This document shows, one piece after another, positions 19,164-56,433 of a DNA stretch of 64,000 bases. Made by a program: the position numbers and the translations under genes. Every line of letters starts with the position of its first letter. The first letter of the stretch is position 1. The stretch is taken from the NCBI RefSeq assembly GCF_012530535.1, contig NZ_CP051299.1:2232001-2296000 (forward strand), written 5' to 3'. The notes below the pieces were generated by a model. That model was not told the DNA's origin and searched no databases. It saw only the letters and a program-made list of their open reading frames with translations. This stretch comes from Microcella flavibacter. Lineage in GTDB: Bacteria > Actinomycetota > Actinomycetes > Actinomycetales > Microbacteriaceae.

Positions 19164-19220
19164 CCTTCCACAACTGCGGATCGGGTGAATGCGGCTCACC
19201 CGATCCGCAGTTCTGGAAGG
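19164..19220. repeat. 57-bp palindromic element, copy 2
   Basis: Arms at 19164-19188 and 19196-19220 match at 24 of 25 positions around a 7-base loop. The left arm begins CCTTCCACAACTGCGGATCG and the right arm ends TCCGCAGTTCTGGAAGG. It is the best-paired copy of the family and lies upstream of pta, not at a gene end, so termination is not its only possible role. Confidence 0.9.
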
Positions 19221-19360
19221 AGTGCCGTCGTGAAGGTCGCTCCCCGCTCCCCGCTCACCGGGCCTCGGCCGAGTCCGCGGGCGGAGTCTCGGCGGGCGGG
19301 CAACGCAGGGCGCGAAGACGGGCGGCGAGCGGGCGGGTGGGCGGCGAACTTTCCCGCGCG

Positions 19361-19417
19361 CCTTCCACAATCACGGAGTGGGTGAAACCGGCTCACGCGC
19401 TCCGTGATTGCGGAAGG
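19361..19417. repeat. 57-bp palindromic element, copy 3
   Basis: Arms at 19361-19385 and 19393-19417 match at 22 of 25 positions around a 7-base loop. The inner stem is CACGGAG/CTCCGTG where copy 2 has TGCGGATC/GATCCGCA, so base pairing is kept while sequence changes. Its right arm shares the string TCCGTGATTGCGGAAGG with copy 1. Confidence 0.9.
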
Positions 19418-19464
19418 ACGGCGGGGATGCTCGCGACCCCCTGCGCGCCGAGGAGTGAGCACGG

Positions 19465-19602
19465 GGTGCGGGTGCGGGTGCGGGTGCGGGTGCGGGTGCG
19501 GGTGCGAGTGCGAGTGCGGGGGTGCGGGGGTGCGGGGGTGCGGGGGTGCGGGGGTGCGGGGGTGCGGGGGTGCGGGGGTGCGGGTGCGGGGGTGCGGGTG
19601 CG
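19465..19602. repeat. G-rich tandem repeat: GGTGCG hexamers, then GGGGTGCG octamers
   Basis: Seven GGTGCG units (19465-19506) and two AGTGCG variants (19507-19518) are followed by eight GGGGTGCG units (19519-19582). The tract ends with GGTGCG, GGGGTGCG and GGTGCG up to 19602. Runs of four G at 8-base spacing could form G-quadruplex structures. Copy number is probably variable. It ends 38 bases before the small membrane protein gene. Confidence 0.92.
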
Positions 19603-19640
19603 AAATGCAGGGCGTCGGCGAGCTCGGTACGATGTCGAGC

Positions 19641-26196: not shown

Positions 26197-26286
26197 TGCG
26201 GTAACTCCTGCATCACGGTGGCGAGTGCGGTGCAGAGCCGCCCGCGCGCCGTGTTCGCGACCCAGGATGCAGGAGTTGCGACACGC
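26197..26286. repeat. About 90-bp palindromic element, type I
   Basis: The left arm contains GCGGTAACTCCTGCATCAC and the right arm GGATGCAGGAGTTGCGACAC, imperfect complements around the shared AACTCCTGCATC. It is followed after 72 bases by the type II element at 26359. Confidence 0.75.
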
Positions 26287-26358
26287 GGAGAGCCGGGGAG
26301 CAGCGTCGACCACCGGGGATCGACCGCTCACGCAGGGAACCCCCTCCCCGCCGCTGGC

Positions 26359-26446
26359 GTGCACGAATGCAGGAGTTCTGTGACGGAAGTCGGCGTGTCG
26401 CCGCTCGACACGCCAGCCGTGCGCGCGATCTCCTGCATTCGTGCAC
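26359..26446. repeat. About 88-bp palindromic element, type II
   Basis: GTGCACGAATGCAGGAG (26359-26375) and CTCCTGCATTCGTGCAC (26430-26446) are a perfect 17-bp inverted repeat. Inside it GGCGTGTCG (26392-26400) and CGACACGCC (26406-26414) form a second perfect hairpin with a 5-base loop. Confidence 0.85.
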
Positions 26447-26514
26447 GGCCGGCGAGGGGCGGGCGGGGCGGGGCAGGGCGAGGCGGGCGAGCGGGGCGGG
26501 GCGGGATGCGCGGC

Positions 26515-27663
26515 TCAGGGCCGCGCGAGCGACCCGGCGTCGGCCCGGCGCGCCAGCGCGGCTCCCGCGTGCTCGAGCCAGTGCTCGGCCCGAGCGAAGG
26601 CGGCGGCGGAGCCGCCAGCGAGCGCCGCGAGCTCGACCACCGCGGCGAGCCCCTCGACCGGCGCCGCGGCGCCCACAGATCCGGCCACGACGGCGACAGG
26701 GACCCCGGCCGGGCGGGCGAGGGCGGCGAGCCGGGCCACCTCGGCGGGCGCCTTGCCCGCGGCGGTCTGGGTGTCGAACCGGCCCTCTCCGGTGATGACG
26801 AGATCGGCCTGCTGCAGGGCCTCGGCGAGGGCGACCGCCTCGGCGATGCGGCGCGAGCCGCTCGACATGACGGCGCCGGCGGCGAGCAGGCCGAAGCCGG
26901 CGCCTCCCGCGGCGCCCGCACCCGGGGTCGCGGCGTCGACGTGCGGCAGGAGGGATGCGAGGTGCGCGAGAGCGGCATCCGCCCCCTCGATGTCGACGAC
27001 GCCCTTCTGCGGGCCGAAGACGGCGGCCGCTCCGCGCGCGCCGAGCAGGGGGTTGTCGACGTCGCCGAGGATGACGGCGCCGCCGGGCGGGAGGGCACGC
27101 AGGCCGGAGAGGTCGACCGTCGCGAGCGAGACGAGGCCACGCAGCCCGAGCGGCACCTCGGCGCCGTGCGCGTCGAGCAGGCGGGCGCCGAGCGCGCGCA
27201 GGGCCCCGGCGCCGCCGTCGGTCGAGCTGCTGCCGCCGAGCGCGAGCAGCAGACGGTCGACGCCGCGGCCCTGCGCATCCCGGTGATCGAGGGCCGCCGC
27301 GATCGCCTCGCCGAAGCCGAGCGTATGCGCGTCATCGGGGGCGGGATGCTCGAGCAGGGTCAGCCCGGAGGTCGCGGCGAGCTCCACGACCGCGGTCGCC
27401 GGCCGGGTCGCCGTGCGAGGCAGCAGCACCCAGTGCGAGTCGACCACTCGGGAGTCGGGGCCCGTCACCCGCACGGGCATGCGCCGCGCATCCGGCACCG
27501 CGACCTCGAAGGCGTCGAGCGTGCCCTCGCCGCCGTCGGCCATCGGGCGCGCGACGAGCTCGTCATCGGGGCGCACCGAGCCCCACCCGCGGGCGAGCGC
27601 CGCGACCGCCTCGACGGCCGAGGCGCTGCCCTTGAACGAGTCGGGGGCGAGGACGACGCGCAT
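26515..27663 (-). CDS. Glycerate kinase (GarK/GlxK type)
   Basis: The enzyme phosphorylates glycerate with ATP, feeding lower glycolysis from sugar-acid breakdown. The 382-residue protein starts with the family motif VVLAPDSFKGSASAVE (3-18). It has PMADGGEGTLDAF near 40, LLLALGGSSSTDGGAGALRALG near 138, and GFGLLAAGAVMSSG near 265. The ATG overlaps the GH42 stop by one base (TGATG), so the two genes are coupled. Its place at the end of a cell-wall sugar operon suggests handling of glycerate from uronate or deoxy-sugar catabolism. Confidence 0.93.
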   Translation of the reverse strand: MRVVLAPDSFKGSASAVEAVAALARGWGSVRPDDELVARPMADGGEGTLDAFEVAVPDARRMPVRVTGPDSRVVDSHWVLLPRTATRPATAVVELAATSGLTLLEHPAPDDAHTLGFGEAIAAALDHRDAQGRGVDRLLLALGGSSSTDGGAGALRALGARLLDAHGAEVPLGLRGLVSLATVDLSGLRALPPGGAVILGDVDNPLLGARGAAAVFGPQKGVVDIEGADAALAHLASLLPHVDAATPGAGAAGGAGFGLLAAGAVMSSGSRRIAEAVALAEALQQADLVITGEGRFDTQTAAGKAPAEVARLAALARPAGVPVAVVAGSVGAAAPVEGLAAVVELAALAGGSAAAFARAEHWLEHAGAALARRADAGSLARP

Positions 27664-29675
27664 CAGGCCTCCGGTCGCAGGAGGCGCACCCCGAACGGCT
27701 CGAGCTCGAGCGAGCTCACGCGCTCGCCCGACTCGACGTCGACGCCCGCGGCCTCGACCGTGACGGGATGCGCGGCGTGATTGATGACGGTCACCACGTC
27801 GCCGCGGCGCGCCGCCTCGACGTGCGCCGGCAGTCCCGGCAGCACGGGAGCGACCCCGGCGGCGGCGAGCACGTGCCCGACGATCGCGTCGGCGCCCTGC
27901 TCGTCGGGCACGGTCGCGAGGTAGCGGGCGGAGCCGCGGCCGTGACGCCGCACGGTGAGGGCCGGGTCGCCGGCGCGGCGGCCGGCGGTGAAGCGGGCCT
28001 CGACCTCGGCGGGGGCGGGTGCGTCGTCCGCCCCGGCGACGCCGAGCAGGTGCAGCTCCTCCGCGAGCAGCGTGCCCGTCACCGTGCCGAACGGCCCGTG
28101 CAGCGGCGCGAACCGCTCGCCGGGCACCTCGGCCGGCGACGCGGGGTCGACGAGCGCGCCGAAGTCCTCGAGGCGCACGCCGAGCATCCCGCCCAGCTGG
28201 GTGAGGAAGCCGCCCTCGCGGAACCGGTCACTCTCGTCGACCACGTCGGTGAAGGGACCGGCGAGCAGGTGCCCGCCGCCCTCGACGAAGGTGCGGACGA
28301 TGGCCGCGTCGGAGTCGGTCAGCAGGTACAGCGCGGGCGCGATCGCGAGGTCGTAGCCGTCGTCGAGCCGGCTCGCGGGCACGAGGTCGACCATGACGTG
28401 GCGGCGGTGCAGCGCGCGGTACCAGCGCTGCACGACGCGCAAGTAGTCGAGCACGACAGGGTGGTCGCTCGCCTCGACGGCCCACCAGTTCTGCCAGTCG
28501 ATGACGAGGGCGACGCGGGCCTCGCGACCGGGCACGGGCAGCTCGGGCAGGGCGGCGAGGCGCTCGCCCAGGCCGGTGACCTCGCGCCAGGTGCGGGTGT
28601 CGGTACCGGCGTGGGGCAGCATCGCCGAGTGGAACTTCTCAGCCCCGGCCCGGGACTGCCGCCACTGGAAGAACAGGATGCCGTCGGCGCCGCGGGCAAC
28701 CGACTGCATGCTGAGCGCCGCCATCTGCCCCGGCGCCTTCGGGGCGTTCGTCGGCCGCCAGTTGAGGGCGTTCGTGGCCTGCTCCATGAGCAGCCAGCCG
28801 GTGCCGGGCTTGAGCGAGCGCATGAGGTCGCGCTGCATGGCCGCGTCGCGGAAGCTCTCGGGCTCGTTCGGGTCGGGGTAGGCGTCGTCGCTGATGACGT
28901 CGACGTGGGGGGCCCACTGCGCGTAGTCGGCGGGCTTGAACGGGCCCATGAAGTTCGTCGTGATGGGCTGCGTCGCGCCCACCTCGCGCAGGATGGCCTT
29001 CTCCATCAGGTAGCACTCGAGCATCGCGTCGCTCGTGAACCTGCGGAAGTCGAGCGCCTGCCCGGGGTTGTGCGAGTACGGGGCCTTGCGCGGCGGCAGC
29101 ACCTCGTCGAAGGATCCGTAGCGCTGCGACCAGAACATCGTGCCCCAGGCCGCGTTGAGGGCGTCGATCGTGCCGTAGCGCGCTCGCAGCCAGCCGCGGA
29201 AGGCGTCGCGCGCGTTGTCGGAGTAGTCGGCGTTGACGTGGCAGCCGTACTCGTTGTTGACGTGCCAGAGCACGACGGCGGGATGCTGGGCGTAGCGCCG
29301 CCCGATGGCGCGCACCAACTCGCCCGCCAGCCGGCGGTACACCGGCGAGGAGGGCGCGTACTGCTGCCGGCTGCCCGGCCCGTACGTCACCCCATCCGCA
29401 TCCTGCGGCAGCATCTCGGGGTACCGCGTCGTCGCCCACGGCGGAGGCGAGGCCGTCGCCGTGGCGAGGTCCACGGCGATGCCGCCGGCGTGCAGCAGGT
29501 CGATGACCCGGTCGAGCCACGCGAAGTCGAACTCGCCCTCGGCGGGCTGGATGCGCGACCAGGCGAAGATGCCGAGGCTGACCATCGTGACGCCGGCCTC
29601 GCGCATGCGGGCGACGTCGTCGGGCCAGATATCCTCCGGCCACTGCTCGGGGTTGTAGTCGGCTCCGTAGTGCAT
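27663..29675 (-). CDS. Beta-galactosidase, glycoside hydrolase family 42
   Basis: A 670-residue enzyme with no signal peptide, so it probably acts on imported galacto-oligosaccharides. The start MHYGADYNPEQWPEDIW is the GH42 N-terminal motif. The acid/base Glu142 is in WHVNNEYGC and the nucleophile is Glu298 in WLLMEQATNALNW. A trimerisation/Rossmann-like middle domain (about 385-590) and a small beta domain follow. GGAAAGCGTATTCC lies 26 bases upstream of the start, an apparent LacI-type operator. The downstream glycerate kinase gene overlaps it by one base. Confidence 0.96.
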   Translation of the reverse strand: MHYGADYNPEQWPEDIWPDDVARMREAGVTMVSLGIFAWSRIQPAEGEFDFAWLDRVIDLLHAGGIAVDLATATASPPPWATTRYPEMLPQDADGVTYGPGSRQQYAPSSPVYRRLAGELVRAIGRRYAQHPAVVLWHVNNEYGCHVNADYSDNARDAFRGWLRARYGTIDALNAAWGTMFWSQRYGSFDEVLPPRKAPYSHNPGQALDFRRFTSDAMLECYLMEKAILREVGATQPITTNFMGPFKPADYAQWAPHVDVISDDAYPDPNEPESFRDAAMQRDLMRSLKPGTGWLLMEQATNALNWRPTNAPKAPGQMAALSMQSVARGADGILFFQWRQSRAGAEKFHSAMLPHAGTDTRTWREVTGLGERLAALPELPVPGREARVALVIDWQNWWAVEASDHPVVLDYLRVVQRWYRALHRRHVMVDLVPASRLDDGYDLAIAPALYLLTDSDAAIVRTFVEGGGHLLAGPFTDVVDESDRFREGGFLTQLGGMLGVRLEDFGALVDPASPAEVPGERFAPLHGPFGTVTGTLLAEELHLLGVAGADDAPAPAEVEARFTAGRRAGDPALTVRRHGRGSARYLATVPDEQGADAIVGHVLAAAGVAPVLPGLPAHVEAARRGDVVTVINHAAHPVTVEAAGVDVESGERVSSLELEPFGVRLLRPEA

Positions 29676-29700
29676 GCGTTAACCTCGTCGTCGAGTGAAT

Positions 29701-29714
29701 GGAAAGCGTATTCC
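29701..29714. promoter_or_regulatory. LacI-type operator palindrome before the GH42 gene
   Basis: GGAAAGCGTATTCC is a near-perfect palindrome with the central CG typical of LacI-family sites. It lies between the GH42 gene (minus strand) and the truncated GH35 gene (plus strand) and could have controlled both. Confidence 0.65.
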
Positions 29715-29786
29715 GACCCTACCGGTCGCGACGCTCCGCTCCCATCCTGCCGCTCCGCTCCCGCGGCTCCCATCCGAGAGGCTCCG

Positions 29787-30398
29787 ATGACGCAGCGACG
29801 GGATGCCGCGCTCACGATCCGCGCATCCGCCCCGGTTCTCTCCCTGCCGACGCCCCTCATGTCGCACGGCGACGACCGCCACGACCGCGTCGCGCTCGGC
29901 CCGGGCCGGGTCGAGCGCGACGGGCGGCCCTGGATCCCCGTGAGCGGCGAGCTGCACCCCACGCGGGTGCCGCGCCGGCACTGGCGGGAGCGCCTGCAGC
30001 TCCTGCGCTCCGGCGGCGTGAGCGTCGTCTCGAGCTACGTCATCTGGATCCACCACCAGCCCGAGCCGGGTCCGGCCCGCTTCGACGGGCAGCGCGACGT
30101 CGCCGCCTTCGTGGCGCTCGCCGCCGAGGTGGGCCTCGACGTCGTGCTGCGCGTCGGCCCGTGGGTGCACGGCGAGGTGCGCAACGGCGGCCTGCCCGAC
30201 TGGGTGCAGGCGGCCGACGTGCGGCACCGCACCGACGACCCCGCCTACCTCGCGCGCGTCGAGGAGTGGTTCGCCGCGCTCGGGGCACACCTGGCCGGCG
30301 TGTGCGGGCCGTCCTCGCCCGTCATCGCCGTGCAGCTCGAGAACGAGCTCATCGATCAGCCCGGGCACCTCGTAATGCTCGCCGCTATGGCTCGGTGA
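29787..30398 (+). pseudogene. Truncated GH35 beta-galactosidase (N-terminal fragment)
   Basis: The 203-residue frame matches the N-terminal catalytic region of GH35 enzymes. WIPVSGELHPTRVPRRHW, then SYVIWIHHQPEPGPARFDG, LRVGPWVHGEVRNGGLPDWV and VIAVQLENEL, which holds the acid/base Glu, are all present. Family members usually exceed 550 residues. The frame stops right after the LAAMAR helix that follows the LENEL strand. The next bases are the 3' end of an opposing gene, so the nucleophile and all later domains are missing. It is most likely a deletion remnant and catalytically dead. Confidence 0.85.
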
Positions 30399-31233
30399 AG
30401 TACACGAGCGCGGCGAGCGGCCCCTCGACGAAGGCCGCGCCGTGCCGCCCCATCTCGCCGTCGAGCGGGCGCGCAGCGGCGGGATCGGCGGCGGGGCCGA
30501 GCACCACCGCGTCGGGGCCGCCCTGGCGGTGCCACGTCACGGCGTCGGCCGAGCGGTGCACGGCCATGCCGCGCCACTCGTCGACGAGCATCCACCACCA
30601 GCCGCCGAGGGCGAAGACCGTCGGGCCCTCGTGCGGGCGCCCGCCGATGACCCGCCCGCCGTCGCGCCAGGTCTCGAGGTCGTCGCTCTCGGCCATCCAC
30701 GTCGTCGAGTCGTCGGCCTCGTTCTTGTACCAGAGGCGCCAGACGCCGTCGGGGCCGTGCGCGACGCAGGCGTCGATGACGCGGTCGCTCGCGAGCGGCA
30801 GCGGGCCGATGCGCGTCCAGCTGCGCAGATCGGGGCTGCGGTACTCGACGATCGACCGTGGATGCCCCTCCCACCGATCGGGAGCGCCGTCGATCACCGT
30901 GAGGAACATGCGGTAGCCGCCCGGCACGGCGATCACCTCGGGAGCCCAGTGCGTCTCCTCCCGGCCGGGCACCTGCTCGAGGCCCTCGAGCACGCCTTCG
31001 TACCGCCAGGCGTCGTCGGGTCGGGGGCCGCGGCGGGCGACGCCGATGCGGCTGCCGTGCACCCACTCGACGCCGGGGCCCTCGTGGCGGGCGCGGCGCT
31101 GCGTGTAGAGCATGACGAGCTCGCCCGTGGCGCGGTCGCGGATGAGGGTGGGGTCGCTCGCGCCGTCGTGCACGGGGTCGCGGAACAGCGGGGCGGGGGC
31201 TGGCTGGTCGCGCGCGCCGTCGGGCGCGCTCAT
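30385..31233 (-). CDS. Five-bladed beta-propeller glycosidase-like protein (GH43/GH117-type)
   Basis: The 282-residue protein has no signal peptide. Propeller features include PVHDGASDPTLIRDRATGEL (candidate Asp near 28), HWAPEVIAVPGGYRMFLTV, IVEYRSPDLRSWTRIG, RVIDACVAHGPDGVWRLWYK (candidate Asp) and HEGPTVFALGGWWWMLVDEW (candidate Glu). These three acids fit the clan pattern. The substrate is probably an arabinose- or galactose-containing oligosaccharide, from context only. The ATG overlaps the upstream Gfo/Idh gene (ATGA). Its 3' end overlaps the truncated GH35 frame by 14 bases. Confidence 0.8.
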   Translation of the reverse strand: MSAPDGARDQPAPAPLFRDPVHDGASDPTLIRDRATGELVMLYTQRRARHEGPGVEWVHGSRIGVARRGPRPDDAWRYEGVLEGLEQVPGREETHWAPEVIAVPGGYRMFLTVIDGAPDRWEGHPRSIVEYRSPDLRSWTRIGPLPLASDRVIDACVAHGPDGVWRLWYKNEADDSTTWMAESDDLETWRDGGRVIGGRPHEGPTVFALGGWWWMLVDEWRGMAVHRSADAVTWHRQGGPDAVVLGPAADPAAARPLDGEMGRHGAAFVEGPLAALVYFTEP

Positions 31234-32396
31234 CGCCCGGGGCGGCGCTCGACGACCGTGCTCTCGAGGCCGGCGCGGAACCGCGCGTCGGAGCGCAGCT
31301 CCTCGGCGGTGACGGCTCGGCCGTGCTCGGCGCTCGCGTAGATCGCCGTCACGAGCTCGAAGCTGCGGGCCGGATCGCTCGCCGTCGACGGCAGCGGCTC
31401 GCCCGCGAGCAGCGCGGCGTAGACCTCGCGCACGAGCGGGTCGTGGCCGCTGCGCTCCCCGGCGTCGGGCAGCGCCCAGCCCGCGGCCTCCTCGGCGCTC
31501 ACGTGCGGGGCCGGGGCGATGCGCCAGTTCTCGTGCCCGTGGCCGTAGAGGTGGTCGACCGTGATCGTCGCGCGCTTGGTGTCGATGCGGATCGAGCTCG
31601 TCTCGCGCGGCGCCACCGCGCTCGTCACGATGCTCGCCACGAGCCCTCCCTCGAAGGTCACGACCGCCGTCGACGAGTCCTCGGTGCCGGTCTCGCGGTC
31701 GAGCCGCCACAGCTGCGCCGTCACGCTCTGCCAGTCGCCGACCAGCCAGGCGAGCAGATCGATCTGGTGGATGCCGTGGCCGAGGGTCGGCCCGCCGCCC
31801 TCCGTCGCCCAGCTGCCGCGCCACGGCACGGCGAAGTACGCCGGGTCGCGGAACCACAGGGTGTGGCAGGTCGCGATGAGCGGTCGGCCGAGCGCCCCGC
31901 TGCGCAGCAGCTCGCGCACGCGGGCGGCGGCGGTTCCCGTGCGCTGCTGGAACACGACCGCGAGCTGCCGATCGGCCGCCCGCGCCGCGGCCGACATGCG
32001 GTCGAGCTCGTCGAGGCTCAGGGCGGGCGGCTTCTCGACCACCACGTGCACCCCGGCCTCGAGCGCGGCGACGGCCTGCTCGACGTGCACGCCGGGAGGG
32101 GTGCAGACGTGCAGCACATCGATGCCGGCGGCGAGCATCCCGTCGAGGTCGGCGAAGACCGCGGGGACCGGGGCAGGGGCAGAGGCGGCGGCCGTGGGGG
32201 CGGCTCCGGCGGGGGCGGAGGCGGCCGGCTCAGCGATGCGCTCGACGAAAGCGGCGGCGGCGGCCGGGTCGCGGTCGACGACCCCGACGAGCCGGCCGAG
32301 CCCGCTGCGCTCGATGGCGAGGGCGTGAGCGCCGGCGATGGCGCCCGTGCCGATGATGCCCGCGCGGAGGGTGCGGGGGTCGCGGAGGGAGGTCAT
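31230..32396 (-). CDS. Gfo/Idh/MocA-family oxidoreductase
   Basis: A 388-residue NAD(P)-dependent dehydrogenase acting on a sugar or sugar derivative. The N-terminal Rossmann motif is IIGTGAIAGAHALAIERSG (14-32). The family signature HVVVEKPPALSLDEL is near 137, and the C-terminal alpha/beta domain includes EGGGPTLGHGIHQIDLLAWL (split motif near 220) with the catalytic His. An Ala/Pro-rich insertion (about 58-80) is unusual. It precedes and overlaps the propeller gene. A LacI-type site lies 45 bases upstream. Confidence 0.92.
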   Translation of the reverse strand: MTSLRDPRTLRAGIIGTGAIAGAHALAIERSGLGRLVGVVDRDPAAAAAFVERIAEPAASAPAGAAPTAAASAPAPVPAVFADLDGMLAAGIDVLHVCTPPGVHVEQAVAALEAGVHVVVEKPPALSLDELDRMSAAARAADRQLAVVFQQRTGTAAARVRELLRSGALGRPLIATCHTLWFRDPAYFAVPWRGSWATEGGGPTLGHGIHQIDLLAWLVGDWQSVTAQLWRLDRETGTEDSSTAVVTFEGGLVASIVTSAVAPRETSSIRIDTKRATITVDHLYGHGHENWRIAPAPHVSAEEAAGWALPDAGERSGHDPLVREVYAALLAGEPLPSTASDPARSFELVTAIYASAEHGRAVTAEELRSDARFRAGLESTVVERRPGR

Positions 32397-32440
32397 GGGG
32401 CTCCGAGGGTTCGGGGCGCCGCACTGCGCGCCCGTGATCG

Positions 32441-32455
32441 TGGAAAGCGTTATCC
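32441..32455. promoter_or_regulatory. LacI-type operator upstream of the Gfo/Idh gene
   Basis: TGGAAAGCGTTATCC has the same core as the site before the GH42 gene. It is 45 bases from the Gfo/Idh start and about 190 bases from the divergent lacI start. Confidence 0.65.
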
Positions 32456-32536
32456 GACAGGGTACACGGGGTGCTCCGCGGCCCAGCGTACGGCCGGCGG
32501 GCGATCCGGGGTCGAGGGATGCGCGGCGCGACCCCG

Positions 32537-32578
32537 GGGCAATCGCTTACCCGCGCGGCGGCGCGCGCGCGTTAGAGT
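32537..32578 (+). promoter_or_regulatory. LacI-type operator and promoter of the lacI gene
   Basis: GGGCAATCGCTTACCC (32537-32552) reads GGGTAAGCGATTGCCC on the other strand and fits the local LacI-site pattern. A TAGAGT -10 candidate follows at 32573-32578, with TTACCC of the operator at the -35 position. The geometry suggests autorepression. Confidence 0.5.
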
Positions 32579-32642
32579 CGAGCGATCGCGCGGGTCAGGC
32601 CGGGCATCCATCGCCGCCACGGAGAAGAGAGGGGCACCCGTC

Positions 32643-33686
32643 GTGACCGACACCCTGCGCAGCAGCCCCGCGACGCTGCACGACGTGGCGCGCGAGGCCG
32701 GCGTCTCGCTCGCCACCGCCTCCCGCTCGCTCAACGGCAGCACCCGCAAGGTCAACGAGGACTACCGCGCCCGCGTGCTCGCCGCCGCCGAGCGCCTGGG
32801 CTACGTCGCCAACCTCTCGGCGCAGACCATCGCCAAGGGAACCTCGTCGACCCTCGCCCTGCTCGTCAGCGACATCGCCGACCCCTACTTCGCCGCCATC
32901 GCCGCGGGCGTGCTCAGCGGAGCCGAGCAGGCCGGCCTCATCACGACCATGGGCATCACGCAGCGCAGCGCCGAGCGCGAGCTCGACCTCGTCAAGACGC
33001 TGCGCGGGCAGCGGCCGCGCGTGCTCATCCTCACCGGATCCCGCTACGTCGACGCCGCCCTCGACGAGGCCCTCACCCGCGAGCTGCAGGCCTTCGAGTC
33101 GACCGGCGGCCGCGTCGTCATGGTCTCGCAGCGCTCGCTGCCCTTCGACACCGTGCAGACCGACAACTACGGCGGCGCGCGCGAGCTCGCCGAATCGCTC
33201 GTCGGCCAGGGCTACCGCTCGTTCGCCGCCCTCACCGGCGTCAGCTCGCTCATGACGGCGCGCGACCGCCTCGCCGGGTTCCGCGACGGACTCGCCGCGC
33301 ACGGCCTGAGCCTGCCCGACGAGCGCGTCGTCGAGACCGAGTTCACCCGCGCCGGCGGCTACGACGGCGCCGGTCAGCTGCTCGCCCGCGGCCTCGACGA
33401 CGCCGAACTGCTCTTCGCCGTCAACGACGTCATGGCCGTCGGCGCCATGTCGCGCCTGCGCGAGGAGGGCATCGACGTGCCCGGGTCGCTCGCCGTCGCC
33501 GGCTTCGACGACATCTCCACCGCGCGCGACGTCACCCCCGCGCTCAGCACCGTGCGCCTGCCGCTCGAGCAGGTCGGCGCCGCCGCCATCGAGCTCGCGC
33601 TCGCGGGCCCGCGCGGCGACGAGCCGACCCTCGTGACCCTCGGCGGCGAGGTCGTGCTGCGCGCGAGCACCCCGGCGCGCGGGTAG
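32643..33686 (+). CDS. LacI-family transcriptional regulator of the cell-wall sugar locus
   Basis: A 347-residue repressor with an N-terminal LacI HTH (TLHDVAREAGVSLATASRSL, about 11-30) and hinge helix (YRARVLAAAERLGYVAN). A periplasmic-binding-protein-like effector domain follows (LALLVSDIADPYFAAI near 68; VAGFDDISTARDVTPALSTV near 288). It is divergent from the Gfo/Idh-propeller operon. Similar palindromes occur before that operon, itself, the GH42 gene, the PL11 gene and the 38.6-kb operon, so it probably controls the whole locus. The effector is unknown. The GTG start is preceded by AGAAGAGAGG, a good ribosome binding site. Confidence 0.93.
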   Translation: MTDTLRSSPATLHDVAREAGVSLATASRSLNGSTRKVNEDYRARVLAAAERLGYVANLSAQTIAKGTSSTLALLVSDIADPYFAAIAAGVLSGAEQAGLITTMGITQRSAERELDLVKTLRGQRPRVLILTGSRYVDAALDEALTRELQAFESTGGRVVMVSQRSLPFDTVQTDNYGGARELAESLVGQGYRSFAALTGVSSLMTARDRLAGFRDGLAAHGLSLPDERVVETEFTRAGGYDGAGQLLARGLDDAELLFAVNDVMAVGAMSRLREEGIDVPGSLAVAGFDDISTARDVTPALSTVRLPLEQVGAAAIELALAGPRGDEPTLVTLGGEVVLRASTPARG

Positions 33687-33731
33687 GGGTCGCGCGGGCG
33701 CGGCCCGCCGCGTCGCGCGCTCACCGCCCGT

Positions 33732-33820
33732 GTGCGGCGACTCCTGCGTTCGTGCCGCGCCCCGCTGCTCGCGCCGCGCGGCGCCGCTCACGGCGGCCCG
33801 GGATGCAGGAGTTGCGGCAC
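33732..33820. repeat. 89-bp palindromic element, type I (unit 1)
   Basis: The left arm GTGCGGCGACTCCTGCGTTC and right arm GGATGCAGGAGTTGCGGCAC are imperfect complements. It lies exactly 160 bases before unit 2. Confidence 0.8.
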
Positions 33821-33891
33821 GCTCGCGCCGAGCATCCCCTCCGTCGCCCGCCGCCCGCGGCCAGCGCGCACCCGCGATGTCGAGCACGCGC

Positions 33892-33980
33892 GTGCCGCAA
33901 CTCCTGCGTTCGTGCCGCGCCCCGCTGCCTGCCCCGCGCGACCCCGCGAACCACGGCCCGGAATGCAGGAGTTGCGGCAC
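33892..33980. repeat. 89-bp palindromic element, type I (unit 2)
   Basis: GTGCCGCAACTCCTGCGTTC (33892-33911) pairs with GAATGCAGGAGTTGCGGCAC (33961-33980) with one mismatch in 20. It is the best-paired type I copy. Confidence 0.88.
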
Positions 33981-34053
33981 GCTCGCGCCGAGCATCCCCT
34001 CCGTCGCCCGTCGCCCGCGGCCCGTGCCCGCCGGCCGCCGCCCGCCGCCCGCC

Positions 34054-34137
34054 GCCCGCGATCAGGAGTCGAGCGCACGAGCACGGCGTGTTGCCGCACG
34101 ACACGGCGGCGGGATGCCCGGACTCCTGATCGCGGGC
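34054..34137. repeat. 84-bp palindromic element, type II, variant arms
   Basis: GCCCGCGATCAGGAGTC (34054-34070) and GACTCCTGATCGCGGGC (34121-34137) are a perfect 17-bp inverted repeat, with GATCAGGAG replacing AATGCAGGAG on both sides. The inner 50 bases (34079-34128) are identical at 47 positions to 38428-38477 in the copy at 38398. Confidence 0.88.
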
Positions 34138-34262
34138 ACTCCGAGACCGCGCATCCCGCACACCGACCGCCGGGCCGCACCGCACGGGTCGGCCGCCGCC
34201 CGCGCGCCGGAGGGCGCCCGGCCGGGTCTCCCCGACCGGACGCCCCGGTGTCGCGCGGGCGT

Positions 34263-37200
34263 CTACCGCACCCGCACCGTCAGCTCACGGCTGGAGGTGA
34301 CCCCGGCCGCGTTCTCGAACTCAGCCACGTAGACGTACGTGCCCGGCTCCCGGTCGGTCACCGACGTCGTCGCCCGCTGGGCGAGCGGCGTCTGCCCCAC
34401 GAGGGTCTGCTCGTCGATGACGACGCCGTTCTCGAGCAGCCGGTACTCGGTCGCGTTCGTGCCCCACCACAGGTTCGTGGTCAGGGTGTAGTCGCTGTCG
34501 CGGTCGCGCGAGTAGTCGCTCGACACCACGGGGGTGCCGGGCGCCGCGTCGCGCACCACGACGGTCACCGAGGTGGTGGCCGTCGTGCCGGCCGCGTTGA
34601 GCAGTTCGCCCGTGAAGACGTACCGGCCGTCGGGCAGCCCGCTGAAGCGGGTGCTCGCGACCTGCCCGTTCGGCGAGTCGGCGGTCAGCAGCTGGGTGTC
34701 GACGAGCACGCCGTCCTGGTAGAGCCGGTAGGCGGTGGCGTTCTCGCCCCACCACAGGTTCATCATGATGGCGAAGGTGCCGTCGCTGAGGCCGTACTCC
34801 CACCCGCTCGTCGACGTGAGCACGCCGCGCGCCGGGGCCGCCTCGGCTCCGGAGTCGGCGAACACGGTGATCGTCGACGAGACCTCGGTCGAGAGCCCGG
34901 CGTTGTTGACGGCGCGCACCGTGAGGGTGCGCTCCCCGACGAGGCCGTCGAGCGCGATCGACGCATCGGCCGCCACCCGCTCGCCGTCGAACTCCACGAC
35001 CAGCGAGCGGATGCCCGACTCGGGGTCGGCGGCGGTCACGGCCAGGTCGAGCGTCGCCGACTCGGCGAGCAGGGCATCCTGCACCCCCGCGATGTCGGGC
35101 GCCGAGGAGTCGGCGACCTCCTCGGGAGCGTTCGTGAACACGATCGGCGGCGCCGGCGGCATCTCCATGCCGTCCCCGATGAAGAAGCTCGGGTGCGGCG
35201 TCGAGTAGACGCGCGCCTCCGAGCTGTCCTCGCTGCGCCAGACGAGCTCCTCGCGCCAGTCGCCGAAGAGGTCGGCCTGCAGGATGGGCGTCGCCTTCGT
35301 GGTGTTGTTGGTGAAGGCCCCCTCCGCGCGCAGGATGACGTCCTCGCTCTGGGTCTCGACGTTCCACTTCGCGATCGTCGGCACGCCCGCGGCGATCGTC
35401 GCGTCGTAGTCGTTGTCGACGATCTCGCGCAGCGGGTCGCCGTCCCACCAGCCGACGAAGTTCGCCGCGGGGATGGCGGTGCCGATGACCGCACCGTCAG
35501 CCGCCACGAGCGTGCCGACGGGCGAGTCGAACGCGCCCGTGCCGCCGATGGCCCACGACTCGTTGCCCGGGAACCGGGCGTCGATGTCGGCGGTCGCCGC
35601 GCGACCGGTGTCGCGCGTCGCCGGGATCCCGAAGATGATCTCGCCGGTGCGCGCATCCCGCATGGTGGCACCCCGGTTGCCCGACTCGCCCATGCTCTCG
35701 TGCGCGGCGAAGACCTCGAGGCCGTCGCGCTCGGGCAGGTGGTCGCCCACGTGCAGCGCATCGCCGTGGCCGAGGCCCGTGCTGTAGAGCAGCGTGCCGT
35801 CGTCGTCGATCGTCGCCGAGCCGAAGACGATCTCGTCGAGACCGTCGCCGTCGACGTCCTGCACCGACAGGTTGTGGTTGCCCTGCCCGTACAGCGCCCC
35901 GTTGCCCGGGTCGTCGGAGTTCAGCACCCAGCGCTCGACGAGCCGGTCGTCGACCACGTCGTAGGCCGCGACCACCGCGCGCGTGTAGTACCCGCGGCTG
36001 AAGATCGCGCTCGGCGTCTCACCGTTCAGGTACGCCGTGCCCGCGAGGAAGCGGTCGATGCGGTTGCCGTAGGTGTCGCCCCACGAGCCGATATTGCCGC
36101 GGGCCGGCGTGTAGTCGATCGTGTCGAGCGCCGCACCCGTCTCGCCGTCGAACAGCGTGAGGAACTCGGGCCCGCTGAGGATGTACCCGCCGCTGTTGCG
36201 GTAGTCGGCGTTCGCATCGCCGATGACGACGCCCGTGCCGTCGACGGTGGCGTCCGCGGTCTTCATGATGACCTCGGCCTTGCCGTCGCCGTCGTAGTCG
36301 AAGACCTGGGGCATCGTGTAGTGCGCCCCGGCCCGGATGTTGCGGCCGAGGTCGATGCGCCACAGCTTCGTGCCGTCGAAGCGGTAGGCGTCGACGTAGA
36401 CGGGGCCGGTCGTGCCGCTCTGCGAGTTGTCGCGCGCGTTCGAGGGCTCCCACATCTGGATGAGCTCGTAGGTGCCGTCGCCGTCGACGTCGCCGACGCT
36501 CGCGTCGTTCGCGCGGTAGCTGTAGGCCTGGCCGCCGGGGGTGACGCCGTCGGCCGGGCGGTCGAGCGGGATGGAGAAGTACTCCTGCTCCCACACGCCG
36601 AACGGCTCGGTCGCCGTGACCTCGCGGTCGCCGACGACCTCGGTGACGAGGTACTGCGACTGCTCCGAGCCCTCGGCGTCGAGGATCGAGGTGGTCGCGG
36701 TGACGGGCGACTCGGTGATGCGCTCGCCGTCGCGGTAGACGTGGAAGGCGGTGGTCTCGGCGTCGTCGCCGAGCATCCGCCACGAGACCAGCACGCCGTC
36801 ATCGCTCGGAACCGCCGCGGGGGCGCGGTCGAGGTACTCGGTCTGGCGCTGCAGCACGGTGACGGCCTCGCTCGCGAGCACCTCCGAGACGGGGGATGCT
36901 CCGCCCGCGTTCACCGAGCGCACCCGGTAGAAGTAGGGGATCGTCGTGAGCACGTCCGTGTCGCGGTAGCTCGTGCCCTCGACCTCGGCGACGACGGCCC
37001 AGGGGCCCTCGGCGCTCGAGGCTCGCTCGACGATGGCGTAGGCCGGTTCGCCCTCGGCCTGCCAGCCGAGCTCGACGAGGTTCTTCTCGATGCTCGTCAC
37101 GGCGAGGCCGGTGGGGGCCGCGGGCGGTGCGAGCTCGGCGTCGACGTAGGAGACGACGAGCTCGTTCGAGGCGACCGACTCGCGGCCCGTGCCGTCGAGC

Positions 37201-37994
37201 GCGATCACCGCGTACCGGTACTGGCGGCCGAGGCGCGCGGAGGTGTCGGTGAACGTCGGCTCGGCGGTCTCGCTCAGCACGGTGGGGGCGGCGTCGCCCT
37301 CGCCGGTGCGCAGCACGCGGTAGCTCGCGCCGTCGACGGGGTTCCAGGCGAGCTCGGCTGTGGGCTGGGCCGCGGAGACGTCGAGATCGACGAGGCGCAG
37401 CTCGGCCGGCGCGAGCAGCGCGGGGATGACCGCGATGCCGTTGAAGCGAGAGGAGTTGCCGCCGATGACGACGTTCAGCTGCCCGTCGGTGACCGTGACC
37501 GGGCCGCGGTCGGCCTCGGTGACGAAGCCGGAGGCGGCGTTGCCCGTGCCGGCGTCGCGACCCTCGATGGTGAACCGGGTCTGGCTCGAGGCGATGAGGT
37601 CCCCGCTCCAGGTGGTGATGTCGTAGAGGCCGTTCGGAACGTCGACGACGAGCTCGAACGGAGCGCCCGAGATGATGAAGTCGCCGATCATGGCGCCGAG
37701 CTCGCCCGGGGCCGCGCCGCGGTTGCGGTCGTTGAGCCCGCCGGTCGCGACGAAGCCGAAACCGCGCTCGGGCGTGTAGGCCATGGTGCGGTCGAGGGCG
37801 GTGAAGCCGGCGGCGAGCGGTGCGCCGGCAGGGCCCGCATCGAGGCGGAGCCCTGCGAAGGGCTCCGCGGCGGCCGCGGGTGCGGCGACCGCGAGCGAGG
37901 AGGCGACGGCGGTCGCCGTGACGAGCGCCATCCACCTCCCGCGGGGCGTCGCGCCGGGAGCGCGAGGGGGTCGGGGGGATGACGCAGAGGCCAC
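34263..37994 (-). CDS. Secreted rhamnogalacturonan lyase (PL11) with fibronectin-III and C-terminal repeat domains
   Basis: The 1,243-residue protein cleaves the rhamnogalacturonan-I backbone of pectin outside the cell. A signal peptide (basic n-region, MALVTATAVASSLAVA core, cleavage near APAAAAEP) is followed by a jelly-roll domain (about 45-185). Two FnIII-like domains come next (about 190-395), then the PL11 eight-bladed propeller (about 420-930). The propeller has calcium-type loops DVDGDGTYELIQMW, DYDGDGKAEVIMK and DVDGDGLDEIVFG. An Ig-like domain (about 955-1040) and two C-terminal repeats with NLWWGENATAYRLY and NLWWGTNATEYRLL end it. The GTG start at 37994 has GAAGAAG 6-9 bases upstream; the ATG at 37931 is an alternative. 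Confidence 0.93.
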   Translation of the reverse strand: MASASSPRPPRAPGATPRGRWMALVTATAVASSLAVAAPAAAAEPFAGLRLDAGPAGAPLAAGFTALDRTMAYTPERGFGFVATGGLNDRNRGAAPGELGAMIGDFIISGAPFELVVDVPNGLYDITTWSGDLIASSQTRFTIEGRDAGTGNAASGFVTEADRGPVTVTDGQLNVVIGGNSSRFNGIAVIPALLAPAELRLVDLDVSAAQPTAELAWNPVDGASYRVLRTGEGDAAPTVLSETAEPTFTDTSARLGRQYRYAVIALDGTGRESVASNELVVSYVDAELAPPAAPTGLAVTSIEKNLVELGWQAEGEPAYAIVERASSAEGPWAVVAEVEGTSYRDTDVLTTIPYFYRVRSVNAGGASPVSEVLASEAVTVLQRQTEYLDRAPAAVPSDDGVLVSWRMLGDDAETTAFHVYRDGERITESPVTATTSILDAEGSEQSQYLVTEVVGDREVTATEPFGVWEQEYFSIPLDRPADGVTPGGQAYSYRANDASVGDVDGDGTYELIQMWEPSNARDNSQSGTTGPVYVDAYRFDGTKLWRIDLGRNIRAGAHYTMPQVFDYDGDGKAEVIMKTADATVDGTGVVIGDANADYRNSGGYILSGPEFLTLFDGETGAALDTIDYTPARGNIGSWGDTYGNRIDRFLAGTAYLNGETPSAIFSRGYYTRAVVAAYDVVDDRLVERWVLNSDDPGNGALYGQGNHNLSVQDVDGDGLDEIVFGSATIDDDGTLLYSTGLGHGDALHVGDHLPERDGLEVFAAHESMGESGNRGATMRDARTGEIIFGIPATRDTGRAATADIDARFPGNESWAIGGTGAFDSPVGTLVAADGAVIGTAIPAANFVGWWDGDPLREIVDNDYDATIAAGVPTIAKWNVETQSEDVILRAEGAFTNNTTKATPILQADLFGDWREELVWRSEDSSEARVYSTPHPSFFIGDGMEMPPAPPIVFTNAPEEVADSSAPDIAGVQDALLAESATLDLAVTAADPESGIRSLVVEFDGERVAADASIALDGLVGERTLTVRAVNNAGLSTEVSSTITVFADSGAEAAPARGVLTSTSGWEYGLSDGTFAIMMNLWWGENATAYRLYQDGVLVDTQLLTADSPNGQVASTRFSGLPDGRYVFTGELLNAAGTTATTSVTVVVRDAAPGTPVVSSDYSRDRDSDYTLTTNLWWGTNATEYRLLENGVVIDEQTLVGQTPLAQRATTSVTDREPGTYVYVAEFENAAGVTSSRELTVRVR

Positions 37995-38036
37995 GGGGTG
38001 TCTTCTTCGACAGCGGTGGCGAGGAACGTGGTGGGA

Positions 38037-38054
38037 TGGGAAAACGTATTCCCA
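38037..38054. promoter_or_regulatory. LacI-type operator before the rhamnogalacturonan lyase gene
   Basis: TGGGAAAACGTATTCCCA is a near-perfect 18-bp palindrome 43 bases upstream of the lyase start. It is the strongest match to the local LacI-site pattern. Confidence 0.75.
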
Positions 38055-38071
38055 AACGGGAACGCTCGTTA

Positions 38072-38084
38072 CCCCCCCCCCCCC
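38072..38084. repeat. Homopolymer of 13 C (13 G on the lyase coding strand)
   Basis: A run of 13 C lies 78-90 bases upstream of the lyase GTG and 18 bases beyond the operator. This is roughly where the promoter upstream elements would be. Such tracts vary in length by slippage. Confidence 0.85.
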
Positions 38085-38254
38085 GGACGGGAGGTCAAGG
38101 GGCGCCCCGCTCACCGCCGACTCTGCCGCGGCGGGTCGGGTGGACCCGGCACGACGGGCGGGACACCGTGCGGCCGACGAGGACCCGGCGGGACAGGCGG
38201 AGTCGGCGCGGCGAGGCCGAAGCGCTTCGGATACGCCCGCCATCCGCGCGACCC

Positions 38255-38347
38255 GTGCACTAACTCCTGCATTCGTGAGCTCAGCAGCACTGGCGCCCCC
38301 GAGCCGCTCCGGCTTGCCGGAGTTATTGCAGGAGTTGCCGCTCGCGC
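38255..38347. repeat. About 93-bp palindromic element, type I
   Basis: The left arm is GTGCACTAACTCCTGCATTC and the right arm contains TTGCAGGAGTTGCCGCTCGC; the shared core is AACTCCTGCA. An inner CCGGCTTGCCGG-like hairpin (about 38309-38321) is also visible. It is followed after 50 bases by a type II copy. Confidence 0.7.
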
Positions 38348-38397
38348 CCGCCGACTCGAACGCAGGGCCGGCCCCGCCTGCCTGCCCCACTGGCCCG

Positions 38398-38491
38398 CCC
38401 GTGCCGAAATGCAGGAGTTCCGCGCTCGAGCACGGCGTGTCGCCGCACGACGGGGCGGCGGGATGCCCGGACTCCTGCATTCGTGCCCGCT
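38398..38491. repeat. About 94-bp palindromic element, type II
   Basis: The left arm contains CCGAAATGCAGGAGTTC and the right arm GGACTCCTGCATTCGTGCCC. The inner 50 bases (38428-38477) differ from the copy at 34079-34128 at only three positions, although the outer arms differ. Confidence 0.82.
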
Positions 38492-38552
38492 CGAGCCGGG
38501 CATCCCGCGCCGCCGCCCCCCTCCGCCCCGCACCGCCCCCGCCGATTCCCCG

Positions 38553-38599
38553 TTGCGCAGCCGCGGCCGGGTGTCCTACACTTTGGTAAACGCTTTCCC
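38553..38599 (+). promoter_or_regulatory. Promoter and LacI-type operator of the Gfo/Idh-DUF993-isomerase operon
   Basis: TTGCGC (38553-38558) and TACACT (38577-38582), 18 bases apart, form a good -35/-10 pair. TGGTAAACGCTTTCCC (38584-38599) lies at the expected transcription start, where a bound repressor would block initiation. Confidence 0.65.
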
Positions 38600-38660
38600 G
38601 CATCGCTGACGATCGGGGCTGCCTCACACCGTCCCACCGCGCTCGAAAGTGAGTCACACC

Positions 38661-39875
38661 GTGTCAGAGTCGACAATCGGCATCATCATGAACGGCGCCT
38701 CCGGGCGCATGGGCTACCGGCAGCACCTCGTGCGCTCGATCCTCGCGATCCGCGAGCAGGGCGGCGTCGAGCTCGCCGACGGGCGCCGCGTGCAGGTCGA
38801 GCCGATGCTCGTCGGCCGCAACGAGGAGAAGCTCGCCGAGCTCGCGAAGCGCCACGGCATCGAGCACTTCACGACCGACCTCGACGCCGCGCTGGCCGAC
38901 GACCGGTGGCAGATCTACGCCGACTTCCTCGTGACGAAGGCCCGGGCATCCGCCATCAAGAAGGCGATCGCCGCCGGCAAGGCCATCTACACCGAGAAGC
39001 CGACGGCCGAGTCGTACGCCGACGCGCTCGAGCTGGCGAAGCTCGCCGCCGAGGCCGGCGTCAAGAACGGCGTCGTGCACGACAAGCTCTACCTGCCGGG
39101 CCTGCAGAAGCTCAAGCGCCTCGTCGACTCGGGCTTCTTCGGCCGCATCCTCAGCGTGCGCGGCGAGTTCGGCTACTGGGTCTTCGAGGGCGACTGGCAC
39201 CCCTCGCAGCGCCCGAGCTGGAACTACCGCTCGGAGGACGGCGGCGGCATCACCGTCGACATGTTCCCGCACTGGAGCTACGTGCTCGAGAACCTGTTCG
39301 GCCGCGTCGAGTCGGTGTACTCGCGCGCCGTCACCCACATCGACCACCGCGTCGACGAGGCGGGCGAGCCCTACGCGGCCACCGCCGACGACGCGGCCTA
39401 CGCGATCTTCGAGCTCGAGGGCGGCGTCATCGCGCAGCTCAACTCGAGCTGGACGGTGCGCGTCGACCGCGACGAGCTCGTGCAGTTCCAGGTCGACGGC
39501 ACGCACGGCTCGGCCGTCGCGGGCCTCTTCGGCTGCAAGATCCAGCCCCGCAACGCGACGCCGAAGCCCGTGTGGAACCCCGACCTGGTCGACGAGATCG
39601 ACTACGACGCCACCTGGGTCGACGTGCCCACGAACGAGGTCTTCGAGAACGGCTTCAAGACGCAGTGGGAGGACTTCATCCGCCACGTGGTCGACGACGC
39701 CCCCAACCACTACGACTTCCTCGCCGGCGCGCGCGGCATGCTGCTCGCCGAGAAGGGCCTCGAGTCCTCCCGCGAGGGCCGTCGCGTGGACGTTCCCGAG
39801 ATCGCCGTCGAGGGCGCCCCCGATTCGGTGGATGCTCCCGCCGAGCACGTCGCCGCCCCGAGCCTCGCGCTCTAG
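38661..39875 (+). CDS. Gfo/Idh/MocA-family oxidoreductase
   Basis: A 404-residue NAD(P)-dependent sugar dehydrogenase, first gene of a three-gene set. The N-terminus has IGIIMNGASGRMGYRQHLVR, an unusual nucleotide-binding loop. YTEKPTAESYADALELAKL near 110 is the EKP motif, VVHDKLYLPGLQKLKRL near 135, and GGGITVDMFPHWSYVLENLFG near 190 carries the catalytic His. The GTG at 38661 is chosen because GAAAGTGAG lies 7 bases before it; a GTG at 38649 lacks a ribosome binding site. The product goes presumably to the following TIM-barrel proteins. Confidence 0.9.
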   Translation: MSESTIGIIMNGASGRMGYRQHLVRSILAIREQGGVELADGRRVQVEPMLVGRNEEKLAELAKRHGIEHFTTDLDAALADDRWQIYADFLVTKARASAIKKAIAAGKAIYTEKPTAESYADALELAKLAAEAGVKNGVVHDKLYLPGLQKLKRLVDSGFFGRILSVRGEFGYWVFEGDWHPSQRPSWNYRSEDGGGITVDMFPHWSYVLENLFGRVESVYSRAVTHIDHRVDEAGEPYAATADDAAYAIFELEGGVIAQLNSSWTVRVDRDELVQFQVDGTHGSAVAGLFGCKIQPRNATPKPVWNPDLVDEIDYDATWVDVPTNEVFENGFKTQWEDFIRHVVDDAPNHYDFLAGARGMLLAEKGLESSREGRRVDVPEIAVEGAPDSVDAPAEHVAAPSLAL

Positions 39876-56207: not shown

Positions 56208-56274
56208 AGTTTGTCGGCGAGTCGAACGAACTCGCCCGTCATGTCACTCGGTCCCGTGCTCTCCGGCTCGGAGC

Positions 56275-56363
56275 GTGCGGCAACTCCTGCATTCCGGGAG
56301 GCGCTCCGCGCGCTGCCGCGCCGCCGACCTTCTGCCGAATCTGAATCGCAGGAGTTAGCGCAC
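56275..56363. repeat. 89-bp palindromic element, type I
   Basis: The left arm is GTGCGGCAACTCCTGCATTC and the right arm contains AATCGCAGGAGTTAGCGCAC. The shared core is AACTCCTGC. It is the only isolated member of the family in the window. Confidence 0.75.
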
Positions 56364-56433
56364 GCCGCGCCGACGTCTCTCCACGCGCGGCGACGCGCTG
56401 GGAGCGCGCGAACGCGGGCGAGCGCGGAGGCGC

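Follow-up and report, generated by a model that had tools for sequence, protein, structure and literature searches.

The type II palindromes of Microcella flavibacter are best explained as dispersed satellites of a resident winged-helix/DUF559 gene, and their arms probably track the specificity of that gene. Two copies bracket the gene, the arms are specific to the gene which they flank, and copies with the same arms are dispersed over the chromosome. Between two species the arms switched in concert, the two halves of the protein diverged unevenly, and the arms within one copy were not coupled with each other.

The window, i.e. the whole 64-kb stretch of DNA that was analysed, contains the following palindromes:

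34048..34143, plus strand, type II palindrome of the GATC-arm class; 44.8 bits with model R1; arms GCCCGCGATCAGGAGTC / GACTCCTGATCGCGGGC, perfect over 17 bp; core CGGCGTGTTGCCGC
38397..38492, plus strand, type II palindrome of the ATGC-arm class; 48.4 bits with model R1; arms AATGCAGGAG / CTCCTGCATT; core identity of 47/50 to the copy at 34048
26355..26450, plus strand, type II palindrome of the ATGC-arm class; 62.1 bits with model R1; perfect arms of 18 bp, CGTGCACGAATGCAGGAG
26203..26277, no strand assigned, type I palindrome; arms AACTCCTGCATC / GATGCAGGAGTT
33732..33820, no strand assigned, type I palindrome; arms GTGCGGCGACTCCTGC / GCAGGAGTTGCGGCAC
33890..33982, no strand assigned, type I palindrome; 22-nt arms GCGTGCCGCAACTCCTGCGTTC; within a tandem repeat
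38262..38336, no strand assigned, type I palindrome; arms AACTCCTGCA / TGCAGGAGTT
56273..56365, no strand assigned, type I palindrome; arms GCGTGCGGCAACTCCTGC / GCAGGAGTTAGCGCACGC

The units of the tandem repeat, 33729-33875 and 33889-34035, were 87% alike. The first-pass annotation had described two palindromes with a common core and differing arms, and its description was confirmed. The cores at 34079-34128 and 38428-38477 were identical at 47 of 50 positions on recount, the arms differed as a block on both sides, and the variant arm of the copy at 34054 was matched perfectly by its partner (34054-34137, the 17-bp pair listed above). The outer part of the arm pair was imperfect in the copy near 38400-38489. 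When both strands of the window were searched with the 50-mer core at a threshold of at least 33 matches, the sole further place was a 36/50 match at 26386, in the third copy.

Further copies were searched for by BLAST and patterns in the window's genome (G000; 2.62 Mb, one contig), and 26 genomes of Microcella in the GTDB sense constituted the comparison set. Most of the copies could be aligned without gaps as a single family, about 97 bp long, with the layout of an arm of ~16 bp, 16 variable bases, CGGCGTGTCGCCGC, ~11 variable bases, CGACACGCCG, 6 bases and the second arm. A covariance model constructed from 17 copies located 26 places in G000 (49 rows, most of the places being found on both strands). 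The model matched in 6 of the 26 genomes with numerous matches only in G000 and G005, a distribution biased by the origin of the model in G000 copies. In G000 the type II copies were dispersed, and a stretch of 795 kb (0.89-1.68 Mb) was without any (p 0.028 on 19 clusters).

The arm classes around the common core were AATGCAGGA in G000, AATTCAGGC in G005 and GCGATCAGGA in both; with the same core, GAATGAAGGA was detected in G006, and AAATGAAGGG or a close sequence in G001, G011 and G024. As a rule, the arm sequence was identical on both sides of one copy. The arm variation exceeds the two copies described at first, five arm sequences being found around a CGGCGTGTCGCCGC-like core in six genomes. 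Alignment A5 comprised 50 of the 58 copies, those of 97 nt, while the three window copies (96 nt) are included in alignment A1 and absent from A5; one G000 place, at 1,836,577, was left out of the copy set.

The comparison of flanks assigned an ortholog in G005 to 18 G000 copies. At 11 of the 14 orthologous loci of the ATGC class, both arms were AATGCAGGA in G000 and of the AATTCAGGC type in G005. One of the remaining three loci had switched on the left side only and two had kept ATGC-type arms, one of these being decayed on the left. The G005 copies which were still of the ATGC type were L084, L098 and, on one side, L096. In contrast, none of the four orthologous pairs of the GATC class had switched, and the arms were kept in all four. 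The identities of the left arms, determined with 13 of the 14 ATGC-class pairs (97-nt elements), were 0.91 and 0.84 within the two species, 0.79 between orthologs and 0.75 between non-orthologs. Arms of the same species thus resembled each other more than did those of orthologs. A reader acting in trans would be the simplest cause of the concerted switch.

The same pattern could be expected if transposition or gene conversion had replaced whole copies and each species had undergone its own recent burst, which we consider unlikely as the general cause. The copies are patchy, and two of the 26 genomes hold nearly all the matches of a model that was built from one of them and is biased in that respect. 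At the L051 locus, 231 bp with the element lie between the aligned flanks in G000 and 10 bp in G005; the occupied and the empty site were compared for a target-site duplication, resulting in a presence/absence difference with no clean junction at this one site. However, the 18 copies occupy orthologous places in both genomes, and the interiors of the switched orthologs were more similar than those of non-orthologs. For the switched pairs with 97-nt elements, 10 of the 14 of the ATGC class, the interior identity was 0.51 compared with 0.33 for non-orthologs, a difference reached in 0 of 10,000 permutations. Four of the switched pairs were individually clear (interior identity 0.59-0.83), whereas six were too diverged (0.24-0.48; non-ortholog mean 0.33) to show that the same copy had been kept. 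Whole-copy replacement may therefore hold for part of the loci, as 6 of the 10 pairs are individually uninformative. The earlier suggestion that the arms are exchanged as a unit was incomplete: the arms had switched and the locus-specific interior had stayed, which was clear in 4 of the 10 pairs, and in one copy (L088:816-912) the change was one-sided.

A candidate for the reader of the arms is encoded outside the window, where the type II copies at 882,854 and 883,937 of G000 bracket a single gene (G000:C1, about 883,000; locus L056:1635-2483, minus strand). The G005 ortholog of this gene is flanked by two AATTCAGGC copies. Pfam detected DUF559 in the C-terminal part of the product, DUF559 protein 2 (E 2e-9), and the matches of MTES_1575 and AbiEi_3_N were below the cut-offs. 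The AlphaFold2 model of the protein had a pLDDT of 93.8 and a pTM of 0.89. Residues 1-171 of the model matched AbiEi 6y8q (Foldseek E 1.6e-5; Z 7.8 over 161 residues) and residues 172-281 matched NGO0050, I-Bth0305I and Vsr with Z values of 13.1, 12.6 and 11.1, respectively. As modelled, the gene product is an AbiEi-like winged-helix domain fused to a DUF559 nuclease of the Vsr/EDxHD-homing-endonuclease-like type. Residues E185, D212, E222, H229, D238 and D242 were invariant in 39 sequences; these conserved E, D and H residues of the EDxHD/Vsr type are presumably the catalytic ones.

The two parts of the protein differed in their divergence between G000 and G005. The identity was 69% in residues 1-52 and 68% in residues 53-128, compared with 93% in residues 179-282. 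The first 128 codons carried 40 nonsynonymous and 35 synonymous differences, the last 154 codons 13 and 31, respectively. Judging from the predicted domains, the half that changed is the half that should read DNA.

Under the satellite reading, the winged-helix domain would recognise one site, which each palindrome carries in both its arms in inverted orientation. With the divergence of this domain between species, the chromosomal sites would follow, locus by locus and in both arms, and many DUF559 genes would each possess their own palindrome family. The Vsr-like domain may cut or nick at the arms, and this nuclease activity may spread or maintain the palindromes. Two drivers would fit the switch: selection that keeps the sites in step with the altered reader, and biased repair where this reader cuts. 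We infer the binding of the arms, their cutting and their copying by the DUF559 protein; binding by the winged-helix domain would correspond to that of AbiEi proteins to the inverted repeats of their own promoter (PMC7319586).

The association of palindromes with DUF559 genes was studied further in the genus and beyond it. PF04480 matches were detected in 25 of the 26 genus genomes, 53 in total. Forty-seven of these genes were examined; one each in G013, G015 and G017, two in G016 and L127 (G019) were left out, the frame of L127 being without a BLAST match to the four G000 proteins. An inverted-repeat score of at least 13 was found in 41 of 94 flanks of 300 bp (22/47 upstream, 19/47 downstream) and in 0 of 93 windows further out (0/46 and 0/47). 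At a score of at least 12, the corresponding numbers were 47 flanks and 3 outer windows. At least 7 of the 47 genes were without a clear flanking palindrome (L111, L113, L114, L115, L117, L129, L130).

Similar results were obtained with 56 further DUF559 genes from named genomes, mostly of Microbacteriaceae, where 61 of 112 flanks reached the score compared with 0 of 111 controls. With nine repeats of genus loci kept in the same scan (65 loci), the counts were 70/130 and 0/129; by side, 33/65 upstream and 37/65 downstream, with controls of 0/64 and 0/65. Identity of the arms was the basis for recognising the nine repeated loci, and the rows were read to obtain the counts that exclude them. Most of the 65 loci came from genera which we take to belong to Microbacteriaceae, and a few from MAGs with broader or other labels. 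In the outer control windows of the genus and the relatives together, the score was reached in 0 of 204. Outside the family, in a phylum sample, 4 of 57 windows and 1 of 56 controls were positive, and arms common to both sides were found in 3 of 28 genes compared with 0 of 321 pairings. The association was present outside Microbacteriaceae at L297, L298 and L300, and was rare there with these settings.

The arms differed from gene to gene or from group to group. Arms shared by both sides of one DUF559 gene (score of at least 8) were detected in 21 of 44 genes, compared with 18 of 517 pairings of different genes. L126, L136 and L137, with incomplete or split frames, were dropped in one step of the genus analysis, lowering the number of genus genes from 47 to 44. 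The partial correlation was entered with 98 genes (44 of the genus and 54 of the 65 named loci, omitting the nine repeats, L188 and one locus lost to the frame check), 72 of which had an arm score of at least 12. In these 72 genes, arm similarity correlated with winged-helix identity, given nuclease identity, at a partial rho of 0.177 (0/500 permutations), and with nuclease identity, given winged-helix identity, at 0.084. These values suggest a coevolution of gene and palindromes, weak in effect and beyond 500 permutations.

Many of the DUF559 genes sit at a few chromosomal places common to the genus, the neighbours of which, by reading of the ORFs, we take to be glgP-like/ybaK-like, dapA-like/thyX-like and others. 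The flanks at these sites were mostly 75-97% identical, whereas the proteins were down to about 30% identical or gave no match at the cut-offs. In the L113/L143 pair, for example, the flanks were 97% and 96% identical and the proteins 51%. Because near-identical flanks hold highly divergent proteins, the unit of gene and bracketing palindromes must undergo either replacement as a whole cassette or very rapid divergence in situ.

The gene-specific arms bear also on the possibility that a different DNA-binding protein of the host, a chromosome organiser or regulator, recognises the arms and that the DUF559 gene is one more of its targets. The 26 dispersed sites of G000 and the 795-kb gap between them would agree with such a protein, and so would the GATC copies, which are without a matching gene. 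GATC arms were seen at none of the DUF559 genes, though the GATC class has the common core, and G005 has one PF04480 match, yet 8 GATC copies in alignment A5; both points speak against the satellite reading. On the other hand, many of the DUF559 genes are flanked, frequently on either side, by an arm sequence of their own, and the HNH genes of the genus, most of the 30 loci of which look like one orthologous gene, had strong palindromes in 0 of 59 flanks. Another host protein is therefore quite unlikely to be the reader.

The concerted change of the arms, from which it had been proposed that pairing itself is selected, was real. In 50 copies, the outer stem contained 135 two-sided changed cells compared with 54.7 (sd 8.1) in shuffles, and the covariation score of the whole structure was 0.311 compared with 0.142; 0 of 500 shuffles reached either value. 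The number of pairs with two-sided change (11 compared with 10.2; 182/500) and the number of further pair types (33 compared with 30.9; 75/500) were not above those of the shuffles, and in the inner stem of the 50 copies two-sided change was found in 0 of 10 pairs. The coupling inside the arm classes was measured with 42 of the 50 copies by shuffling the right arms among copies, a comparison with few varying pairs and limited power. The Watson-Crick cells of the real and shuffled arms numbered 244 and 244.5, 178 and 180.9, and 172 and 173.2. Since the arms of one copy are uncoupled within a class, the outer-stem covariation is a difference between arm classes. The covariation test called for by the first-pass annotation was thus positive for the outer stem beyond shuffles, and the signal lay between the arm classes without coupling inside them. 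The proposed selection on pairing itself failed the test which distinguishes it from a common recognition site, as the arms of the same copy matched no better than the shuffled right arms within a class.

Two inverted sites for one reader give covariation between classes, whereas a selected hairpin should couple the arms inside a class as well. In appearance, the arms resemble a single recognition site that is present twice in opposite orientation, more than a hairpin under selection; the lack of within-class coupling is evidence for this and not proof, because few positions vary inside a class. A hairpin in which the arms must pair as RNA or as cruciform DNA, and in which compensatory changes keep the stem, is very unlikely. 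The DNA folding z values of six copies, -3.9 (34043), -1.9 (38400), -8.8 (26355) and, for three others, -8.9, -8.8 and -6.1, and the outer-stem covariation as such would be in accordance with it, but the position of that covariation between classes, the unchanged inner stem and, within its limited power, the within-class arm test disfavour it. Among known RNA families (Rfam, gathering threshold), the window matched the SRP RNA and one tRNA only, and the palindromes were unmatched. Ordinary bidirectional terminators or generic extragenic palindromes are extremely improbable: the type II copies of the window are extragenic by ORFs and Pfam calls and the palindromes at 33732-34143 are flanked by genes converging on them (a LacI-type gene ending at 33686 and RGL11 ending at 34263), but the copy at 38397 has divergent genes as its neighbours, the copy at 26355 is located upstream of a HerA-like gene, the loops are about 50-57 nt with a variable interior, and the arms are gene-specific.

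REP/RAYT systems ('REPtrons', with the REP-associated tyrosine transposase) are usually taken as the model for how many short palindromes are maintained in bacteria in association with one resident gene. Inverted palindromic units are described on both sides of the RAYT gene, which coevolves with them and evolves faster than its neighbours (PMC2817692; PMC3116915). The DUF559 gene is similarly bracketed by two inverted palindromic units which are also dispersed, and the palindromes appear to coevolve with it, as suggested by the weak partial correlation and by the switch that accompanied the diverged DNA-binding half. In contrast to the Y1 HUH transposase of REP/RAYT, the enzyme here is a predicted winged-helix protein with a Vsr-like nuclease. 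The units listed measured 64-101 bp, the copies number in tens, whereas REPs usually exceed 100 per genome (PMC2817692), and the DUF559 genes occupy common sites with hyperdivergent alleles. The search for a Y1 transposase (PF01797) was positive in 5 of 14 control genomes and gave 0 matches in G000, and this enzyme was rejected as the partner of the palindromes. The best reading is that the palindrome-DUF559 arrangement resembles REP/RAYT in its mode of working and falls outside that group, because the enzyme is unrelated, the window's genome is without a Y1 transposase, and units and copy numbers differ; the likeness would be one of arrangement, not of descent. A more comprehensive picture, to which we assign somewhat less than an even chance, is that of a resident system, either selfish or regulatory, which does not descend from REP/RAYT and occupies a few fixed sites across Microbacteriaceae; each allele would have its own bracketing palindromes, would be replaced or re-specified fast, as in the L113/L143 pair, and would rewrite the arms of dozens of satellites by the nuclease so that they conform to its present specificity.

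The likeness to AbiEi antitoxins (type IV toxin-antitoxin AbiE) consists in the winged-helix fold of the N-terminal part of DUF559 protein 2 and in the combination of such a protein with inverted repeats, whose binding is predicted here and described for AbiEi (PMC7319586). Unlike in AbiEi, a nuclease domain is fused and the palindromes are found on both sides of the gene and genome-wide. The nuclease fold is shared with the EDxHD homing endonuclease I-Bth0305I and Vsr, from which the DUF559 nuclease differs by its association with palindromes. MITEs likewise are short inverted repeats without coding capacity that occur in tens of copies, but here the termini vary between classes and the core is conserved. 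A link between DUF559 and palindromes was not found in the open-licence literature, where the wider searches did not all require DUF559. If true, a second such arrangement with an unrelated enzyme would show that these partnerships arise repeatedly, and it would point to a function of the DUF559/AbiEi-like genes present in 25 of the 26 genus genomes. The genome-wide switch of a recognition sequence at orthologous loci, accompanied by divergence of the DNA-binding domain, would constitute a natural experiment. What keeps the dispersed palindromes alive and who reads them are questions directly testable by a binding assay.

Palindromes of other arm sequences were found with the other DUF559 genes of the genus. 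In G000, genes 2 and 3 were bracketed by clear palindromes and gene 1 by degenerate ones of the CGAACGTCGGAGA type, and gene 4 had a type I-like palindrome on one side. The arm GTTCGCAACTCAKGCTGA (up to one mismatch) had 106 matches in 14 of the 26 genomes, many of them as close inverted pairs, compared with 0 for the reversed control. Of the 106 matches, 92 were in the 8 genomes for which a gene of this arm group had been examined, and the proportion was 71 of 85 when the 21 copies flanking those genes were excluded; G023 had 5 matches of this arm without a DUF559 match. The arm TGTCCGCTCGCCCCGG was low-copy, with 22 matches in 10 genomes compared with 3 control matches, 6 of the 22 being at the G007 and G022 genes.

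The type I arm GTGCCGCAACTCCTGC had 8 exact matches in G000 and 0 in the 25 other genus genomes. With one mismatch, 6 single matches were found in the relatives, where the reversed controls gave as many or more; in G000 the reversed controls gave 5 matches with one mismatch, and the exact matches were 8 compared with 0. Only the exact matches of this arm are distinctive. The type I palindromes would belong to DUF559 gene 4 of G000. In the window, TGCAGGAGTT occurred 22 times (up to one mismatch) compared with 1.13 expected, and 0 of 100 shuffles reached 22; its abundance is thus not due to chance.

The half-switched copy was detected in G005, the second Microcella genome, at 816-912 of the fetched locus L088: its left arm was ATATTCAGGC while CTCCTGCATT was retained at the right arm. 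The GATC-arm type II copies, in turn, were located at positions 176413, 610598, 2517096, 673856 and 2266048 of G000:C1, the contig containing the window, and eight were determined in G005. An ATGC- or ATTC-arm copy lay within about 250 bp of 9 of these 13 copies. The arm switch was found in none of the four GATC-arm ortholog pairs of G000 and G005, and no DUF559 gene with GATC arms was seen among the genes examined.

The type II copies were absent from 795 kb of the G000 chromosome (G000:C1:889321-1683988; p = 0.028, 19 clusters) and were missing also from the part of G005 which corresponds to it by position.

In the window, the type I arm AACTCCTGCATT was the exact reverse complement of the type II arm AATGCAGGAGTT. 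This match may be due to chance or exchange; the owners of the type I and type II arms seem to be different DUF559 genes.

Other repeats and genes of the window are listed below.

Short-loop palindromes and other features (window positions)
4525-4581: short-loop palindrome of the second kind
19163-19221: same kind
19361-19417: same kind
19464-19606: GGGTGC / GGGGGTGC units repeated in tandem
26515-39875: Pfam calls of RGL11 rhamnogalacturonan lyase, GH42, GH43 (weak), GFO/IDH oxidoreductases and LacI regulator

The stem differences between the copies of the short-loop kind (CCTTCCACAAYTGCGGA..) at the three places were concerted here too, and the arms of this kind did not match those found beside the four DUF559 genes of G000. 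The Pfam calls indicate plant-polysaccharide use, and several palindromes occupied the borders of these genes.

Split or short DUF559 frames were observed at L126, L136 and L137, which are possibly decaying genes. The DUF559 genes of other actinobacterial families at L297 (genome G041), L298 and L300 were flanked on both sides by matching palindromes with loops of about 20–30 nt or shorter.
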